Virus record (IMG/VR): IMGVR_UViG_3300050821_010575
Span: 1 to 29,437 of that record
From: a virus
Strand: one strand, 5' to 3'
Length of the DNA: 29,437 nt
The notes below the pieces were generated by a model. The model was not told where the DNA came from and made no database searches. It worked only from the letters and a program-made list of their open reading frames with translations. The position numbers and the translations under genes are program-made. Position 1 is the stretch's first letter; every line of letters begins with the position of its first letter. Positions 8,009-29,437 of the stretch are shown here, one piece after another.

Positions 8009-9388
8009 CTAGCCGACGATGTAGATGCCCGAGCTGGTGATCATGAGCTCGGTGATGGCCCAGACGAGCGCGTCCATGCGATCCGGTGAAGGCAGCCCGA
8101 GGTCGAACCGCCAGGTGGTCATCTGGCTCTCGAGCAGCGCGTGGTAGCCGACGTGGTGCACCTTGCCCTGCTCGTAGAGCCCAACCACGGGCTCTGCGCG
8201 GGCGTCCTTGCCTCTCGAGGCGTTGACGCCCTTGTACGGGATGGCTGGGTCGATCTGACGGATGACGGTCTCGACCAGGTCGCCGCCGTTGTTGACCTCA
8301 CCGATGATGCGGTCGCCGTTGTACGCGTGGTAGAGCTCGACGCCCTTGCGAGCCCAGCCGTTCGGGCTGAACCGCCCGCTACCGTCGCTCAGCACGTACG
8401 CGTGCTTGTTGTCGCCAAGCCCGACCACGACGATGCCGGTCTCCGCGCTCGTCTTCTTCGACGTCACAGCTGGGTCGATCGCGACGACGATGCGAACCAG
8501 GCGCGACAGGTCCTTGCCGTTGATGCGGCTGCGCTCGATGAGGAGCGTGTTCCAGTGTGCGCCCTCGACGTCCTCGATCAGCTTCGCGTAGAGCTCCTGC
8601 TGACCGAGCGTGGTGCCCTCGTACTTGCGCACGACCTCGCTGATGAACGTCCTCGCGAGGTTGGCCAGGTTCTCGTACGTGGTGCCGATCGTCATGACGA
8701 CGTCGACGTGCTCCGTGACGCGACCGGCGCGCAGCTCGACGTCAGAGACGGCGCGTTTGTTGAGGTCGCGCATCATCGGCGTCGGCTTCGGCGTCGTGGT
8801 CAGCACGACCTGCGGGTCGTGGCCGAGCCGAAGGCCGAACATCAGCTGGTCGAGCGTCTCGGGGTACTGCCACGCGGCCGGCTCGTCGCCCCACGCCTTC
8901 TCGTGCTGCGGCCCGCGCAGCCGGTTTGGCTCCTCGGCTGAGTATAGCATCGCCGTGGCGCCGTTGGGCCAGCGCACGCGGCGCCGGCCAGGCTCGTAGA
9001 TGGGGCGCTCGTTCTCGGGGTCGTGCTCGCTGACGGCGATGATGCCGGACGGGCCCTCAACCATGACGTCGCGGACGTCCGAGCTTGTGGCGCCGACGAA
9101 CGCGACGCGTCGCACACCTTGCTGGACCCAGTGGCGAACGAGCTGCGCTCCGGTGCGGGTCTTGCCCCAGCCACGGCCGGCTTGGATGAGCCAGGTGACC
9201 CACTTACCAGGAGGTGGGAGCTGGTTGGGGCGCGCCCAGAACTTCCAGTCCGCCAGCAGCGTCGACGCAGCCTGCGGCGTCAGCTTGTCGAGGATCGCGC
9301 AACGCTCCGGCTCCGGCAGCGCGGCCAGCTTCTCCAGCAGCGAGAAGTGCTCGGCCTGCGCCGGGATCAGCAGCTCGTTGGCGGTCAC
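8009..9388 (-). CDS. terL: Terminase large subunit
   Basis: 459 aa, normal length for the ATPase-nuclease motor that packages phage DNA. ATPase part: Walker A A-G-R-G-W-G-K-T at 70-77, Walker B ending A-W-G-D-E (D168, E169), and coupling motif T-T-T-P-K-P near 197-202. Nuclease part (RNase H-like): V-V-A-I-D-P with D305, G-E-V-N-N-G-G-D with E364 and D370, and D-R-M-D-A-L with D439. GTG start 9388-9386 overlaps the stop of the upstream glycosyltransferase (GTGA), with TGAGG about 6 nt before it. It precedes the portal gene by 26 nt, the standard order. Confidence 0.95.
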   Translation of the reverse strand: MTANELLIPAQAEHFSLLEKLAALPEPERCAILDKLTPQAASTLLADWKFWARPNQLPPPGKWVTWLIQAGRGWGKTRTGAQLVRHWVQQGVRRVAFVGATSSDVRDVMVEGPSGIIAVSEHDPENERPIYEPGRRRVRWPNGATAMLYSAEEPNRLRGPQHEKAWGDEPAAWQYPETLDQLMFGLRLGHDPQVVLTTTPKPTPMMRDLNKRAVSDVELRAGRVTEHVDVVMTIGTTYENLANLARTFISEVVRKYEGTTLGQQELYAKLIEDVEGAHWNTLLIERSRINGKDLSRLVRIVVAIDPAVTSKKTSAETGIVVVGLGDNKHAYVLSDGSGRFSPNGWARKGVELYHAYNGDRIIGEVNNGGDLVETVIRQIDPAIPYKGVNASRGKDARAEPVVGLYEQGKVHHVGYHALLESQMTTWRFDLGLPSPDRMDALVWAITELMITSSGIYIVG

Positions 9389-9996
9389 GCCATCCTCAGC
9401 TCTGGGTACCGCTGGTAGAACCGCTCTCGCTCCGTGGGCATGTCGATCCGCTGCATGTGCTGTTCTGCGTGAGCGCGGTAGTTCCAGAGCGGCGACCTAA
9501 CGCAGGCCCACACCGCGCCGGCCTTGAACAGCTCGTATCGCGACGCCCAGTCGCTGTACGCCAGTTCGTTGCCAGCCTTCTCAACCGCGTCGATGAAGCG
9601 CGTTCGGCGGATCAGGGACGTGAACCAAGCGACGGGGCCGCGCCGCAGGTTCTCAAGCGTGAAGTGCGGGGCGCAGTATCGCGCGCTTCGCTGCCCAAAC
9701 TCCTGCACGTCGCTGTAGACGAGATCCGCTCCGATGCGATCAGCGGCGGCGAGAAACTCGCGCAGCGCATCTGGTGCCCGCAGCGTGTCGTCATCACACA
9801 GTGGCAGGATATACTCGCCCTTTGCGAGCCGCGCCAGGTCGACGATCTTCTCGTGGTACGGAAAGCTCGACATGCTGATGAGGACCTGCACCTGCTCCTT
9901 CAGCAGGTCCTGCGCCTCGACCGAGGCCAGCGTCTCACGCAGCATCGCCGCTCTTTCGCCGCCAGACGGGATGAGGACGCTGACGCGAGGGTTCAG
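9385..9996 (-). CDS. GT2-type glycosyltransferase inserted between terminase genes
   Basis: I extend this gene to a CTG codon at 9996-9994, which overlaps the terminator codon of the small-terminase gene as CTGA with AAGGA 9 nt upstream. This gives 203 aa starting N-P-R-V-S-V-L-I-P-S-G-G, the first beta strand that GT-A enzymes need; starting at ATG 9945 would remove it. Other GT2 features: L-R-E-T-L-A-S-V-E-A-Q, then G-E-Y-I-L-P-L-C-D-D-D-T-L with the metal-binding D-D-D, and a late W-N-Y-R-A-H. It probably transfers a sugar to an unknown acceptor. Its place between the two terminase genes is unusual, and tight overlaps at both ends show it is integrated in the operon. Confidence 0.75.
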   Translation of the reverse strand: MNPRVSVLIPSGGERAAMLRETLASVEAQDLLKEQVQVLISMSSFPYHEKIVDLARLAKGEYILPLCDDDTLRAPDALREFLAAADRIGADLVYSDVQEFGQRSARYCAPHFTLENLRRGPVAWFTSLIRRTRFIDAVEKAGNELAYSDWASRYELFKAGAVWACVRSPLWNYRAHAEQHMQRIDMPTERERFYQRYPELRMA

Positions 9997-10538
9997 AACT
10001 CGCCGTCCTTGGCCGCGATCTGGGCTGGCGGTAGGGCGGGCTGCACCTCGCGACCCGACATGCGCTCTGCAGCCTCACGAACAGCGTCGAGCAGCTTCAT
10101 GCGCGGATCTTCGCTGCCGAAGTTGAAGTTGTACGTATCGCCGCTCGCTGGCAGCTGCGAGGCCTTCTCGTTCAGCAGCTGCTCGCTCAGGTGCAGCAGC
10201 ATCGGGACGTTGCCCCTCATCGCGACGCGCCATCTCACCCGTCGAAGCGCGATCAGCGACTCTTCGCGCCCCTGCTCAGTGATGCGGCCGTACTGCGCCT
10301 TGAAGTCTGCGATCGGCACGTCGATGACCTTCGCGATCTCGTCGTCGGTCATGTACAGCGCTGCGAGGCGCCGCACCATCTCCGGGTCGATGGGGCGCTC
10401 TCGAAAGTCCTGGTTCTCGAGCGGGTCGAGAACCTCGCTCTCGAACAGGTCAGCCGGCAGCCGTCGTGGGATCGACGCGTCGAGGAGCGTCTCTCTGCGC
10501 CGCCGCTGTCGGTGAAGGCCTTCCGCTGCCACGCGCAC
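9993..10538 (-). CDS. terS: Terminase small subunit-like protein
   Basis: 181 aa. The central part has a helix-turn-helix-like stretch (M-V-R-R-L-A-A-L-Y-M-T-D-D-E-I-A-K-V) followed by I-T-E-Q-G-R-E-E-S-L-I-A-L-R-R and A-M-R-G-N-V-P-M-L-L-H-L-S-E-Q-L-L, a pattern I know from small-terminase-like proteins that recognise packaging sites. It is the first gene of the leftward structural operon and is followed (after the GT) by the large terminase. The start may be GTG 10538 or the in-frame GTG at 10532-10530; the latter is better spaced (8 nt) from AAGGA. The C-terminus (P-A-L-P-P-A-Q-I-A-A-K-D-G-E-F) is a flexible tail. Confidence 0.75.
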   Translation of the reverse strand: MRVAAEGLHRQRRRRETLLDASIPRRLPADLFESEVLDPLENQDFRERPIDPEMVRRLAALYMTDDEIAKVIDVPIADFKAQYGRITEQGREESLIALRRVRWRVAMRGNVPMLLHLSEQLLNEKASQLPASGDTYNFNFGSEDPRMKLLDAVREAAERMSGREVQPALPPAQIAAKDGEF

Positions 10539-10568
10539 CGTCCTTGGTCAGTGATGATCGATCTAGGC

Positions 10569-10597
10569 AACATAGCACATGTGTGGCCAAAAGTACA
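10569..10597 (-). promoter_or_regulatory. Promoter-like site, leftward, for the structural operon
   Basis: The minus strand reads TGTACT, 17 nt, TATGTT, with the -10 about 30 nt before the small-terminase start. Hexamers and spacing match the other promoter-like sites. Being the only such site upstream of the terminase genes, it is the best candidate for the head-operon promoter and is divergent from the site at 11339-11367. Confidence 0.6.
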
Positions 10598-11246
10598 CAG
10601 GTGTCACCTCGAGTCACGGCAGGACGGCAAGGACTGGCCCACCGCGCCCGGGTAGTTATAAACATGCATGTGCCCGAGCGCTGCGCCATGGGCTGGTAAC
10701 CCCCTAAAGATGCAAGGATAGGCCATTCGAGATGCCTCAAGCACACTTCTAATCTCAAGCCAGGGTTACATGGGTTACAGGGTTACACGACCCTCTAGCT
10801 GGTAAGGACAGCGACGACGCTTTCGCTAAGTTGTTGCCCTGGCTACCCTTGCACCTTAGTGACCCACCCAAAGCCCGCGTTGCCGTGTAACTTCCTTGTA
10901 ACTTCACCTTGTAACAAAAAGTCACTTTTTGCAGCTGTAAGTGATTGCTGCCAAATGCTTTAGTGACGTGTAACCCCTGCTGCGCGTTACTCTTATGACA
11001 CAGGACTCAAATAGTAACTCGTATGTAGGTTTTGAGCTCACCCCTTGACCAGGCTACGCCTTGCCCCAGGCCTTCGTACGCCCTGCCATCGGCTTGTAAC
11101 CCCGACTGCTCACCCGGGGTGACTGCGGGTTACAGTGGGGTTACAAGCCTCTACGTTGTTTAGCACGAACCACTTGCAGCGTACGATTTGTGATATTGTT
11201 AACAACTGAAGTTACAAGCGGGTTACAGCTCCTGCGCAGCGAGGCG

Positions 11247-11270
11247 TGTCACTCGCTCAGTCGAGTGACA
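11247..11270. promoter_or_regulatory. Perfect 9-bp inverted repeat
   Basis: TGTCACTCG, six bases CTCAGT, then CGAGTGACA. No T-run follows in either direction, so it looks like an operator or extrudable hairpin within the control region rather than a terminator. It lies about 70 nt upstream of the rightward promoter-like site. A smaller inverted repeat (GAAAC-GCTA-GTTTC, 11322-11335) lies between the two. Confidence 0.5.
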
Positions 11271-11338
11271 GTCCCGCGTCGCGTGTCTTTTGCTCCCCAA
11301 TAAACAGCCGTGTACTCAAAAGAAACGCTAGTTTCCTG

Positions 11339-11367
11339 TGTACTTTTCGTGAGATAGGTGTTAGGTT
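11339..11367 (+). promoter_or_regulatory. Promoter-like site, rightward, for the small-gene operon
   Basis: TGTACT, 17 nt, TAGGTT, followed by GAGCTC. It is nearly the same as the site at 20101-20129 (TGTACTTTTC and GTGTTAGGTT in both). It would drive the operon beginning at 11530, leaving a leader of about 155 nt that includes a GGGTTACA copy at 11425. Confidence 0.65.
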
Positions 11368-11529
11368 GAGCTCACATGAAGGTGCAAGCATCTCGTTCGG
11401 CGTAGCGCTGGGGGCCTAGCCCGCGGGTTACAGCCATCCTCACTTGGAAACGCGTAGGCATACGTCGCAAGTGGCAGCGCTCCGCCGAACGAAGCTCGCT
11501 CAAGACACTTCTATTAGAGAGGAGATCCG

Positions 11530-15921: not shown

Positions 15922-16232
15922 CAGATCTTCAGATCAGCGAGGAGGTGAGCCAGGCCGTGCGGCTGTGGCTCAGCGCACCGCACGCTACGCGCGGCTCGCT
16001 CGAGGAGCTCGTACAGAGCTGCGTGAACGCGCAGCAGCAACACACTGTCGAGACGCTCACTGATGGGCTGAGCGAGCTCAGCATCGCGCGCAATAGTCAG
16101 CTGGGCTCTCTCGCGCAGCAGGTCATCGACGAGCTGAGCACGGCCAAGTTCCTGAATGATCAACTCTACTCAGCGAACGCGCAGCTCACAGCTCGCATCA
16201 CCGAGCTCGAGGCTGAGGAGCCGATCCCATGA
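15918..16232 (+). CDS. Small helical protein, paralogue 2
   Basis: 104 aa, ATGA overlap with its paralogue. It shares the order E-V-(x)n-W, Ala-Pro, S-L-E-E-L-V-Q-S-C-V and a C-terminal coiled-coil helix (S-A-N-A-Q-L-T-A-R-I-T-E-L-E-A-E) with the preceding protein, although most other residues differ, which suggests an old duplication. Function unknown. Confidence 0.65.
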   Translation: MTDLQISEEVSQAVRLWLSAPHATRGSLEELVQSCVNAQQQHTVETLTDGLSELSIARNSQLGSLAQQVIDELSTAKFLNDQLYSANAQLTARITELEAEEPIP

Positions 16233-16420
16233 AGCCGCGCTGCCTGTTGCTGGGCCATGCCTGGAGCAGCGTGAGAGCGATTGATCTGCAGAAAGAGCTG
16301 ATCACCGTGAGCGGCGCAAAGCACCGCATCCGCTGGTTGCAGGTCCACTACGCCTGCATTCATTGCGGTAAAGAGTGCGCGCGCGATTATACGCCTGAGA
16401 TCATTCAGGAGGCAGAGTGA
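16229..16420 (+). CDS. Small protein with a CxxC motif
   Basis: 63 aa, ATGA overlap with the previous gene. Begins M-K-P-R-C-L-L-L-G-H-A-W and has Y-A-C-I-H-C-G-K-E-C near 41-50. With C5, H10, C43 and C46 it could bind one zinc ion, as in many short phage proteins of the C-x(4)-H...C-x-x-C type. Function unknown. Confidence 0.6.
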   Translation: MKPRCLLLGHAWSSVRAIDLQKELITVSGAKHRIRWLQVHYACIHCGKECARDYTPEIIQEAE

Positions 16421-16737
16421 TCCAAGAGCTGCGGTTCCACGCCGCTCGGCTGCTGTTCATGCGCCGCCTGTTCGCGTTCCTCGCCTCAGCTGAGGCAGAG
16501 CACGACAGCTCGCGCGGTCGGCTCATGGTTGAGCTGTTCGATACAGGACAAGGCCGCAAGCCACGACACTGGAGCTGGCAGGTGCGCGTGCCGGTCTTCA
16601 CCGGCCGCGTGCAGGTGGGCTTCGTCAGCTGCTTGAGGGCGCCGATCTATGACCAACGGCTGCTGAGCCCTCAAGAAGCGTTTCACAGCACCGGGAAGTG
16701 GCCACCCTACTACGAGGCGAGGCTCCATGGCGCCTGA
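16417..16737 (+). CDS. Unknown protein
   Basis: 106 aa from GTG 16417 (GTGA overlap, GGAGG close upstream). The N-terminus is amphipathic and Arg/Phe-rich (L-R-F-H-A-A-R-L-L-F-M-R-R-L-F-A-F-L), followed by beta-like segments (W-S-W-Q-V-R-V-P-V-F). No recognised family. The end overlaps the next gene by 11 nt. Confidence 0.6.
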   Translation: MIQELRFHAARLLFMRRLFAFLASAEAEHDSSRGRLMVELFDTGQGRKPRHWSWQVRVPVFTGRVQVGFVSCLRAPIYDQRLLSPQEAFHSTGKWPPYYEARLHGA

Positions 16738-20129: not shown

Positions 20130-20163
20130 AGCTCTGTAACACGAGAGCGGAGAAAGCTGTGCC

Positions 20164-22627: not shown

Positions 22628-22801
22628 CTATATTGTTACATTGGGCTCCGGGACGACCTCGCCGCAGTACAGGCAGACCTTCACCGGCTCGACCATCTCC
22701 TTGCAGGTCTCGCAGACCCGCATATCGGGATCGACGGCGCGCTGGCAAAACGGGCACTCCAGCGAGATGTCCTCGTGCTGGCACTCTGATGGTTGCGTCA
22801 T
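22628..22801 (-). CDS. Small zinc-ribbon-like protein
   Basis: 57 aa from ATG 22801-22799, overlapping the stop of the upstream gene (ATGA). It has three CxxC pairs (E-C-P-F-C-Q near 15-18, V-C-E-T-C-K near 29-32, V-C-L-Y-C-G near 43-46) plus C7 and H9. These could bind two zinc ions, as in double zinc-ribbon proteins. Function unknown; it may bind nucleic acid or RNA polymerase. A longer in-frame start at 22921 would overlap the neighbour and is rejected. Confidence 0.7.
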   Translation of the reverse strand: MTQPSECQHEDISLECPFCQRAVDPDMRVCETCKEMVEPVKVCLYCGEVVPEPNVTI

Positions 22802-23117: not shown

Positions 23118-23145
23118 CTGCCTCGGAAACTTGTTACATTGGCCC

Positions 23146-24990: not shown

Positions 24991-25017
24991 CAGCGTCAGG
25001 CATCTTGTTACATTGGC

Positions 25018-25693: not shown

Positions 25694-25720
25694 GGCTCTC
25701 CTCTCTGAAAGGTAAGTGGG

Positions 25721-26855: not shown

Positions 26856-27017
26856 TTACTGGCCTCTCTGGCGTGCCAGCGCGGCACGCCCCTCGGCCTG
26901 AAGCGCGTGCTTTCGCAGCTCCTTGAGCAGCTGCACCATGTTCTGTGCATCTCGTGCACTTTTTGCGTGCGACTTCACCCAGGCCCAGATCGCCTTCTTC
27001 ACCTCAGTCTCTGTCAT
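26856..27017 (-). CDS. Small protein downstream of DNA polymerase
   Basis: 53 aa from ATG 27017-27015, overlapping the polymerase stop (ATGA), to TAA 26858-26856. M-T-E-T-E-V-K-K-A-I-W-A-W-V-K-S-H-A is an amphipathic helix, followed by a second (M-V-Q-L-L-K-E-L-R-K-H-A-L-Q-A). It is coupled to the polymerase, so a polymerase accessory role is possible but unproven. Its 3' end contains a hairpin (26870-26890). Confidence 0.7.
   Translation of the reverse strand: MTETEVKKAIWAWVKSHAKSARDAQNMVQLLKELRKHALQAEGRAALARQRGQ
26870..26890 (-). terminator. Hairpin in the 3' end of the 53-aa gene
   Basis: GGCGTGCC, a 5-nt loop, GGCACGCC. It lies within the last 12 codons of the gene, upstream of the TAA and of the next promoter, so it may attenuate transcription leaving the polymerase operon. 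Confidence 0.45.
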
Positions 27018-29437
27018 TTTCTAGGCGGCAGCGGTTTACAGTCACCCCAGTTAGGGCCGACCTCAGCCTCAGCTCTTACTGGTACTCTGAGCTTAGCGAC
27101 GCTCTCCATGATCTCTTTGATCTTGTATGCTTCTCTAACTCCTTTTGCGCCTGGAGGGACTGTTGCATCGAGCTCATCGTGAATCGTGAGGTGCAGGATC
27201 GTGTTCTCGTAGTCGATCTCCTTGTCGACCGCGATCATCGCCAGCTTGATGAGATCCGCCGCTGAGCCTTGCGTCAGGTAGTTCAGCGCGTTGTTCGTGC
27301 GCGTGAACACGGTTCGACCGCTGACGTTCAGCGCCTGGAACCGGCAGCGCCGCCCGCCGTGCGTGATGATGTAGCCTCTCGCCGCGGCCTTGTTCATGGC
27401 TCTCTTCGCGAGGATTCGCGCCTCTGGGATCTGCTCGTGGTACGCGGCCAGCGCTGCGTTGGCTTGGTCAGGCGGTAGCCCCGTCTGCGCGGCCATCTTC
27501 TTCTCACCCATGCCGAAGAGGATGCCGAAGTTGATGTTCTTGGCCGGGTCGCGCGCCATGCCGGTCAGGTCCGCCACCATCTGGTGGAAGTCCACGTCCG
27601 GCTCGTTGACGTACCGCTGCATCACGGCGCCACCAGCGTAGTGCGCAAAAAGCCGATATTCGATCTGGCTGTTCGCTGAGATGACGCCAGCGCCAAGCGC
27701 GTAGTTGTGGTGCTCATCAACCGTGAGCTGGTACATCGGCAGCATCAAACCAAGGTCTTCGACGAGCGTGACCTTGTGGTTCAACCTTCTTCGCGGATGC
27801 GCTGCAAAGCACGCTGAGCAGCGCCTGCCTGGCCAGGCCTGAGATGGCCAGAGCTGCATCATGGTATCGCACTCTGTGCACTTGACCTCTATCTTTCCAC
27901 CTTTCCAGCGGGGGTTGCCTTCACCTGCGTAGGACCTTCTGGCTTTCAGACCGACGCGCAGCGCGGCGACTCTCTTTTCCTCATCGACGCCGGTCCAGGC
28001 ATCAAGAGCTCGATGAACGGATATCGGCAGATACTCGAGGTTGTCAGGGCCGTAGTTGTGAGCATCGCGATCTTTGTGGTGCACCTCGTGACCTGGAGGA
28101 CACGGCCCAAAGTGCGCTTCGGCCACGAGCCTGTGCAGCTTGCTGTAGAGCCTGTTAGACCAGCTGTAAAAGGTAGGGTATCCCTTCAAGCCGTCTGTGC
28201 CTTTCCTGATCGCCGCGAGCGAGTCACCTGGCGCCAGCGCGCTGATCTTGCGCAGCTCGCCATCGCGCATGACCATCTTGTGATCACCAGATGCGATGAT
28301 AGCCTCACCGCTGTCGAGCGTCAGGCGCCAGGCTGGCAGCATGCCGACGCAGGCGGACGCGCTCACGTTGCCCCAGGTGATGCGGCCGTTCTTCCAAGAG
28401 AACACCTTGTCACCTGGCATGATGTCCTTGATCTGCTTCTTGCCTCGCGTCGTTTCGACCTCAGTCTCTCCGGCGAGGCAGAAGTCACAGCGCAGCCACT
28501 GACCGCCATCGTAGGCCGGGATGAAGAGCCCGCGGATCAGCGGCGCCCAGACCTTGTCGCGCTTCGGGATGTTCTGCGCGTTGAGCCCGCCGGCAGAGCT
28601 GAACCGGCCCGTGCGCGCGCCGCCGAACGCGGACTTCGCCTGGTGGAACGAGGGGTGGATGAAGCTGTGCGGCGTGATGTTCTTGAAGATGTAGTTGTCG
28701 ATGAACACGTTGCTGTAGTGCTTCGCCTGCTTCGAGGTGATGATCAGCTTCGCGACTGGGTGCTCGACCGTCTTCAGGAAGTCCTTGGTCACTGACGCGT
28801 TGCCAGCCTCCGTCTTCGGCGCCGTGATGCCAAGGCTCTCCAGCAGCTGCGCGACCTGCGCTGTCGACTCGCAGTTGAGCTCCACGCCGTGGTTGAGCTT
28901 GAACAGCTCAGCCTGGGCCTCATCGCGGCGCTTCACGAGCTCGTGCTTCAGCTTCTCCGCCTTCTCCGCGTCGACCCGCACGCCAGCGCGATACATCCGC
29001 ACCAGCACCGGCATCAGCGCCCGCTCCATGTCGTGCACCGTCGTGAGCCCGTTGACCGCGATCTTGGGCTGTAGGCAGAGCCAGAGCAGCCGGGTCAGGT
29101 TCGCGTCCTGCTCAGCGTAGGGCTCGACCAGGTCGCCTGGGCACCTGTGATAGAAGCCAGCCTCCTTGCCCTTCTTCACGTCGAACACCTGTCTGCAGTA
29201 CTCGTTGAGGTCGTCTGAGGCCTTGACGTGCTGCGGGCCGAGGTGCTTGATGCACAGGTTCTCGAGGCTATAGCTGGGCTCGTACTCGTCAAGCAGCGCA
29301 GCGATGACGCAGGTGTCATCCACCTGCTCGGGCAGGTCAAACCCAACCGCGCGGATCATGCGCAGATCGTACACGGCGTTGTGGAACACGGCCAGCACGC
29401 CTCTCGCCACCTCCTTGTTCCACCACTCTCTCACCTG
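27014..29437 (-). CDS. polA: DNA polymerase I-family (family A) replicative polymerase with an intein; 5' end outside window
   Basis: At least 807 residues, cut at the right edge. Part of a 3'-5' exonuclease is visible (H-N-A-V-Y-D with N19 and D23, later Y-A-E-Q-D-A-N near 105-111). The polymerase has L-N-A-Q-N-I-P-K-R before motif A, R-D-P-A-K-N-I-N-F-G in motif B (R-x3-K) and I-H-D-E-L-D in motif C. Motif A (D-F/S-Q-I-E) is split between Phe and Ser by a 270-residue intein. Motif B ends F-G-I-L-F-G-M-G, with Phe where the family normally has Tyr (E. coli Y766). Without the intein it should be a functional replicative enzyme. Confidence 0.93.
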   Translation of the reverse strand, partial: QVREWWNKEVARGVLAVFHNAVYDLRMIRAVGFDLPEQVDDTCVIAALLDEYEPSYSLENLCIKHLGPQHVKASDDLNEYCRQVFDVKKGKEAGFYHRCPGDLVEPYAEQDANLTRLLWLCLQPKIAVNGLTTVHDMERALMPVLVRMYRAGVRVDAEKAEKLKHELVKRRDEAQAELFKLNHGVELNCESTAQVAQLLESLGITAPKTEAGNASVTKDFLKTVEHPVAKLIITSKQAKHYSNVFIDNYIFKNITPHSFIHPSFHQAKSAFGGARTGRFSSAGGLNAQNIPKRDKVWAPLIRGLFIPAYDGGQWLRCDFCLAGETEVETTRGKKQIKDIMPGDKVFSWKNGRITWGNVSASACVGMLPAWRLTLDSGEAIIASGDHKMVMRDGELRKISALAPGDSLAAIRKGTDGLKGYPTFYSWSNRLYSKLHRLVAEAHFGPCPPGHEVHHKDRDAHNYGPDNLEYLPISVHRALDAWTGVDEEKRVAALRVGLKARRSYAGEGNPRWKGGKIEVKCTECDTMMQLWPSQAWPGRRCSACFAAHPRRRLNHKVTLVEDLGLMLPMYQLTVDEHHNYALGAGVISANSQIEYRLFAHYAGGAVMQRYVNEPDVDFHQMVADLTGMARDPAKNINFGILFGMGEKKMAAQTGLPPDQANAALAAYHEQIPEARILAKRAMNKAAARGYIITHGGRRCRFQALNVSGRTVFTRTNNALNYLTQGSAADLIKLAMIAVDKEIDYENTILHLTIHDELDATVPPGAKGVREAYKIKEIMESVAKLRVPVRAEAEVGPNWGDCKPLPPRK
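27671..28480 (-). other. Intein with HNH endonuclease in polymerase motif A
   Basis: 270 aa in frame, beginning C-L-A-G-E-T-E-V (first splicing Cys) and ending G-A-G-V-I-S-A-N before Ser. Block B-like S-G-D-H-K-M lies near its residue 70. The middle has H-E-V-H-H-K-D-R-D-A-H-N-Y-G-P-D-N-L-E-Y-L, an HNH homing-endonuclease motif, and a C-x-x-C...C-x-x-C zinc-finger-like pair. Block F (M-Y-Q-L-T-V-D-E-H-H-N-Y-A-L-G) is clear. The residue before the final Asn is Ala instead of the usual His, known in some inteins but often linked to slower splicing. Complete endonuclease and splice ends suggest an active mobile intein. Confidence 0.93.

Follow-up and report, generated by a model that had tools for sequence, protein, structure and literature searches.

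A dense GTTACA repeat array between divergent operons of an environmental phage is a probable iteron-type replication origin

The intergenic region between two divergent operons of IMG/VR virus record IMGVR_UViG_3300050821_010575, a 29,437-base fragment of a phage encoding DNA polymerase A (PolA) that is referred to here, over its whole analysed length, as the window, carries a dense array of the hexamer GTTACA. The array is probably the phage replication origin, at which a phage primase would read the repeats, as iterons, through its C-terminal winged helix. Arrays of the same kind recur in about 100 of the phages listed, in two fixed genomic contexts, and their spelling turns over in register among close relatives, independently of the small terminase subunit (TerS) and in association with a residue of the primase wing. 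Because its own primase lies beyond the fragment, we infer from these relatives that the window phage works alike.

Thirteen exact copies of GTTACA or its complement TGTAAC are present at 10765–11432 on both strands (starts +10765, +10774, +10782, -10886, -10897, -10910, -10969, -11095, +11129, +11140, +11211, +11222 and +11427), nine of which are extended to GGGTTACA. Spacing within groups is 8–13 bp, and the groups follow one another as three plus, three minus, one minus, one minus, two plus, two plus and one plus. A single near-copy, GGTTACC, lies at 10695. For the gap between genes (10539–11529), 1000 local dinucleotide shuffles gave 0.68 expected copies with a maximum of 5, and the most frequent 6-mer in the shuffled gap, whatever its sequence, had a mean count of 4.5 and a maximum of 7. 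Over the whole window there are 18 copies against 2.9 ± 1.7 expected from shuffles, with 5 in the 28.4 kb outside the gap. A preliminary description made from the sequence had given 13 copies, nine extended cores, tight clusters, copies on both strands, a palindrome at 11196 and a chance expectation below one copy, all of which were recovered on recounting; the comparable hexamer density in coding DNA that it named as the finding that would speak against it was not seen. The features of the array and of its surroundings are as follows.

8009–9388, minus strand: terminase large subunit (TerL)
9993–10538, minus strand: probable small terminase or helix-turn-helix DNA-binding protein, judged from its place upstream of TerL
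10569–10597, minus strand: promoter-like element PL (TGTACT, 17 bp, TATGTT), preceding the packaging operon
10765–10787, plus strand: iteron group 1, three direct copies of GGGTTACA, 9 and 8 bp apart
10886–10915, minus strand: iteron group 2, inverted triplet of TGTAAC at intervals of 11 and 13 bp
10916–10968, no strand: AT-richer segment (AT 0.60 vs 0.36 window average), candidate unwinding element
10969–10974, minus strand: single inverted iteron GGGGTTACA
11095–11100, minus strand: single inverted iteron GGGGTTACAAG
11129–11145, plus strand: iteron pair, 11 bp apart
11146–11210, no strand: AT-richer segment (AT 0.58) containing the palindrome, second candidate unwinding element
11196–11205: palindrome TTGTTAACAA
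11211–11227, plus strand: iteron pair, 11 bp apart
11339–11367, plus strand: promoter-like element PR (TGTACTTT, 13 bp, GTTAGGTT), preceding the small-gene operon
11427–11432, plus strand: single iteron, downstream of PR
20101, plus strand: promoter-like element
22618, 23118, 24990 and 26816, minus strand: promoter-like elements
22633–22644, minus strand: CCAATGTAACAA box preceding a leftward promoter-like element, of uncertain relation to the array
23131–23142 and 25005–25016: further CCAATGTAACAA boxes, sisters of that at 22633–22644
27014–29437, minus strand: PolA, cut by the contig end and 34% identical to the PolA of phages with the array before terS

No credible gene was recognised between 10539 and 11529, in agreement with the preliminary description. 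The GC content of the gap is 54% against 64% for the window, and there is no extreme AT tract beside the iterons, the two AT-richer segments lying between iteron groups. At 668 bp, the array is longer and less AT-rich than most of the others described below. A DnaA-box origin (TTATCCACA-type 9-mers) was not indicated, since the k-mer count of the gap has a clear excess for the GTTACA family only. A perfect inverted repeat, TGTCACTCG-CTCAGT-CGAGTGACA, occupies 11247–11270 between the array and PR, and a similar imperfect one, GTGTCACCTCGAGTCAC, is found just upstream of PL (about 10601–10617).

The array is located between the divergent promoter-like elements PL and PR and is flanked by the TerS-like gene and by a gene for a 139-amino acid protein without assigned function. 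The leftward block to its left comprises the TerS-like gene, a glycosyltransferase-like gene and genes for TerL, portal, protease and capsid, and to its right a rightward block of small genes is followed by leftward genes including those for a DUF932 protein, an AAA protein and PolA, the last of which is split by an HNH/intein-like insertion at about residues 325–590. The product of the gene at 9993–10538 has no Pfam or PHROG match and shows weak similarity to a phage DNA-binding protein. A tRNA-Met gene (2574–2648) lies between the capsid and glycosyltransferase-like genes and matches its counterpart in Sinorhizobium phage phiLM21 with 90% identity over 61 bp, which hints at an alphaproteobacterial host.

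PL and PR belong to a set of seven promoter-like elements in the window with the common pattern TGTACTTT-N13-(G)TTAGRTT. Their shared -35 (GTGTACTTT) and -10 (TTAGRTT, often then AGCTC) are unusual and their spacing is constant, and a phage sigma factor or activator may be needed for their use. The recurrence of the hexamer at leftward promoters, as noted in the preliminary description, is real: three of the distant copies (22635, 23133 and 25007) are each contained in a CCAATGTAACAA box, and each of these boxes precedes the -35-like box of a leftward promoter-like element by a constant interval of about 16 bp. The CCAATGTAACAA box has TGTAAC in common with the array and different flanks, TT preceding and TTGG following GTTACA at the promoters as compared with GG and AG in the array. 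The remaining two distant copies are at 20135, downstream of a rightward promoter-like element, and at 25720, overlapping a stop codon.

Conservation of the array among close relatives, proposed in the preliminary description as a check, could be followed in part. Searches of IMG/VR with TerL, portal and right-arm queries returned one near-identical contig, L009, together with distant TerL relatives that do not have the motif. L009 is 99% identical to the window and retains iteron group 1, and it stops inside the array at 10818. No GTTACA array was found in the named TerL relatives Mae-JY09, Pan1 and MW202777 or in DSL-LC04 and HTVC027P, isolates with related TerS, and a scan with the promoter pattern gave no match.

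Scanning IMG/VR for three clustered GGTTACA returned, among the matches listed, contigs with 6–20 copies on both strands at 7–13 bp spacing, as well as coding repeats with a period of 3, and a mixed-strand motif scan gave at least 120 matches. The reversed-motif control gave 31 matches in the full IMG/VR scan, with no GTTACA array among them. In that control scan (L239–L269) the motif used, ACATTGG, also returned six both-strand arrays of its own, which are possibly further origin words. At least 101 array loci including the window, at least 88 of them non-redundant, are contained in the matches listed, at GC contents of 30–71%.

These arrays have two main contexts, one immediately after the 3' end of a primase-helicase gene and the other before terS. 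Across the 88 non-redundant arrays listed, neighbours of at least 500 amino acids make up 25 of the 69 genes with their 3' end toward the array and 4 of the 81 with their 5' end toward it (p=2e-6), and in the former orientation the distance from the stop codon of these large neighbours to the first iteron is mostly 1–40 bp. The 3'-facing neighbours are replication primase-helicases, with the SF3-helicase domain DUF5906 in 19 of 50, VapE in 11, DUF927 in 3 and D5_N in 2, besides DUF3987, DnaG and others, and on the 5'-facing side Terminase_2 is the single enriched family (12 of 55). By profile search, 28 of the arrays listed lie 3' of a primase-helicase gene, 18 lie 5' of terS, 1 is in both positions and 41 are in neither. 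Relatives of NrS-1 Pol (L140 and L154) carry GGTTACA arrays 5–12 bp behind the gene, and other words, without GTTACA, stand behind related primase-helicases: AAGGTCCGAA in AH2, AGGTATCCGAA in Vibrio 1.017.O and GGGGATAGG in ply2008005c. In the cultured Pelagibacter phage HTVC023P (L279, 6660–6780), ACTAGGAAAA repeats on both strands lie directly upstream of terS and are probably the same element with another word.

The window most resembles the second context. PolA is encoded at 11 of the loci with the array before terS, the window included, and these proteins form one blastp cluster; the replication module of the group comprises an SF2 helicase, DUF7307, a Pam3_Gp34-like protein, an archaeo-eukaryotic-type (AEP) primase, a UvrD-like helicase and PolA. 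In common with the group, the window has a PolA gene (at the 34% identity given above) and, on both strands of a stretch of about 700 bp, at least six iterons of the GTTACA type. The gene next to its array, which lies 5' of it, is TerS-like by position, but its product is unrelated by profile to the Terminase_2 proteins of these phages. The 600 bp upstream of 75 terS relatives contain a mean of 3.6 GTTACA against a background of 0.17, and other terS relatives have GTAACA, GGAACA, GGTACA or ATTACA in a like arrangement.

The change from one word to another is concerted. In the pair L334 and L332, whose DNA is 94.8% identical and whose TerS proteins are 100% identical, all iterons have changed in register from GTAACA to GTTACA. 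A switch of every iteron in place indicates selection by a changed reader and not independent mutation. A host factor as that reader, with one word for all hosts, is unlikely, as the spelling varies between near-identical phages. TerS was rejected as the reader since identical TerS proteins occur with different iterons.

The primase shows the largest association with iteron type. Its identity averages 0.76 within the GTTACA and GTAACA types vs 0.53 to the GGAACA type, a group that is also a lineage. In the structure model of the AEP primase (mean pLDDT 74, the C-terminal part mostly 77–91), the last 90 residues form a winged helix with a predicted order of helix-helix-strand-strand-helix-helix-strand-strand, including helices 443–452 and 460–469 and strands 473–479 and 482–490. 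Its weak fold matches are to the winged-helix proteins 5vfy, HSF1 and PadR, and the N-terminus gives fold matches to prim-pol domains. Residue 476 (L386 numbering) sits in the first wing strand of the model and is Val in 12 of 13 GTTACA/ATTACA phages and Leu or Gln in 4 of 4 GTAACA phages (p=0.002, a value that ignores descent and comes from few independent changes), and it is Lys in four GGAACA-type phages. The sole exception, L390, has CGTTACA iterons and a Thr. Near-identical pairs differ in the same way, L370 having GESTVLKI with GTTACA and L372 GESRLLKI with GTAACA, and L385 having Val with ATTACA and L376 Leu with GTAACA. In these relatives, the association with the wing residue lends indirect support to the proposed sequence-specific binding of the iterons by the C-terminal domain of the primase.

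In the mechanism that we propose, a phage-encoded initiator would bind the short iterons on both strands. In the best-matching relatives, the PolA phages with the array before terS, this initiator is most likely the AEP primase, whose predicted C-terminal winged helix would read the iteron. Once bound, the primase would load the helicase and lay primers in the neighbouring AT-rich stretches, from which PolA would continue synthesis. Several points count against this reading. There is no primase of either type in the window, whose contig ends inside PolA, its TerS-like protein is of another family, and its array exceeds most others in length and is poorer in AT. The cumulative GC skew, recommended in the preliminary description as an origin check, has no clear turn at the array and is uninformative on an origin. 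Finally, L383 has a normal AEP primase of the group and a GC-rich region (16085–16505) with no recognisable iterons upstream of terS.

The three GTTACA boxes at promoters further suggest a regulatory role and in this respect speak against a pure origin; promoter control may overlap with the origin. The preliminary description had left the choice between a replication origin and/or a master operator, and it is the iteron-origin half that gains support, from comparison with the arrays of other phages. A dual role, with the initiator starting replication at the array and also repressing or activating PL, PR and the three leftward promoters, would extend the origin reading and not exclude it. Initiators of iteron plasmids that autoregulate through their iterons are well known and provide a precedent, and the core hexamer is common to array and promoters, but the window contains no initiator gene and the flanks of the promoter boxes differ, so that we entertain this extension only tentatively.

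The operator and packaging-site readings are weaker than the origin reading. If the array were a master operator or enhancer, a phage regulator acting on GTTACA boxes would control the two divergent operons and activate the leftward early promoters. The positions of PL and PR on either side of the array and the fixed placement of the CCAATGTAACAA boxes are as this would predict; however, most boxes of the array are 100–600 bp from either promoter, the promoter boxes have flanks unlike those of the array, and arrays elsewhere lie next to the 3' ends of primase-helicase genes, with no regulator gene in common, which makes this account unlikely. It is more doubtful still that the array is a packaging start (pac or cos) at which TerS binds repeats adjoining the gene that encodes it, in the manner of lambda cosB or SPP1 pac. 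Such a site would explain why the array is directly 5' of the probable terS in the window and of Terminase_2 genes in 18 relatives listed, whose TerS proteins match an SF6/SPP1-type DNA-binding domain, but repeat specificity in the relatives does not track TerS. At least four pairs with 99–100% identical TerS (L334/L332, L304/L296, L308/L305 and L292/L290) have different iteron words, TerS identity is the same within and between iteron types (0.74/0.74), and like arrays also stand behind primase-helicase genes. A partition or centromere-like site of a plasmid-like phage, with ParB- or ParR-type repeats, would have clustered short repeats at about 11-bp spacing, as here, but is highly improbable given that no ParA/ParB or ParM/ParR gene was recognised among the window genes scanned and that arrays elsewhere adjoin primase genes and terS.

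Known origins offer partial parallels to an iteron origin of this kind. In SaPI Rep and SCCmec Cch2, short iterons directly downstream of the replicative helicase gene are bound by the C-terminal DNA-binding domain of the helicase (PMC7581432). This anatomy is shared by the arrays 3' of primase-helicase genes, and iterons immediately downstream of the initiator gene, as in the SaPI and P4 type, are found in 28–29 other arrays listed and not in the window; in the window and in the phages with the array before terS, a long distance separates array and primase gene, and no SF3 helicase is fused to the primase. The P4 alpha protein is a multifunctional primase-helicase that binds origin repeats via a winged-helix domain (PMC4234260), although its primase is of the Toprim type, whereas the terS-array phages have an AEP primase and separate helicases. 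The pRN1 ORF904 protein is an AEP primase with a C-terminal winged helix and an essential region downstream of its gene (PMC4234260), but pRN1 has a stem-loop origin that lacks iterons, unlike the arrays described here. NrS-1 PrimPol recognises 5'-TTTGGTTA-3' (PMC8718748), which has GGTTA in common with the iteron. In NrS-1 the HBD reads this motif on a single-stranded template, whereas the reader proposed here is a C-terminal winged helix. A search of the PDB gave no sequence match between the terS-array primase and NrS-1, and by fold the two match only weakly. A link between the NrS-1 priming site and the iteron is possible.

Origins whose iterons are bound by a C-terminal domain belonging to a replicative helicase or primase are already known from SaPI, Cch2 and P4. 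Novelty appears to lie in the spread of a single word over many unrelated phages, in arrays close to terS in phages whose AEP primase stands alone, and in iterons that change together, matched by a wing residue; no paper describing such an origin system was found in the literature searched, the scope of which excluded most subscription journals. We regard as evenly balanced the wider proposal of a widespread phage origin system based on the reading of iterons by the C-terminal winged helix of a free-standing AEP primase, with one or two wing residues setting the spelling (Val for GTTACA, Leu or Gln for GTAACA, Lys for GGAACA). All iterons would switch together while the rest of the genome stays near-identical, so that close relatives would have distinct, possibly incompatible origins, and the window would belong to this system with GGGTTACA.

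The replication origins of most environmental phages are, to our knowledge, unknown, and an iteron signature behind primase-helicase genes or before terS would permit origins to be annotated from sequence. The HTVC023P array is a tractable test case. Iteron switches matched to a single primase position constitute a natural series for deciphering the protein-DNA code in origin recognition by phages, and they raise the question of why origins diversify so fast, whether through competition of co-infecting phages, origin-stealing satellites or host defence.
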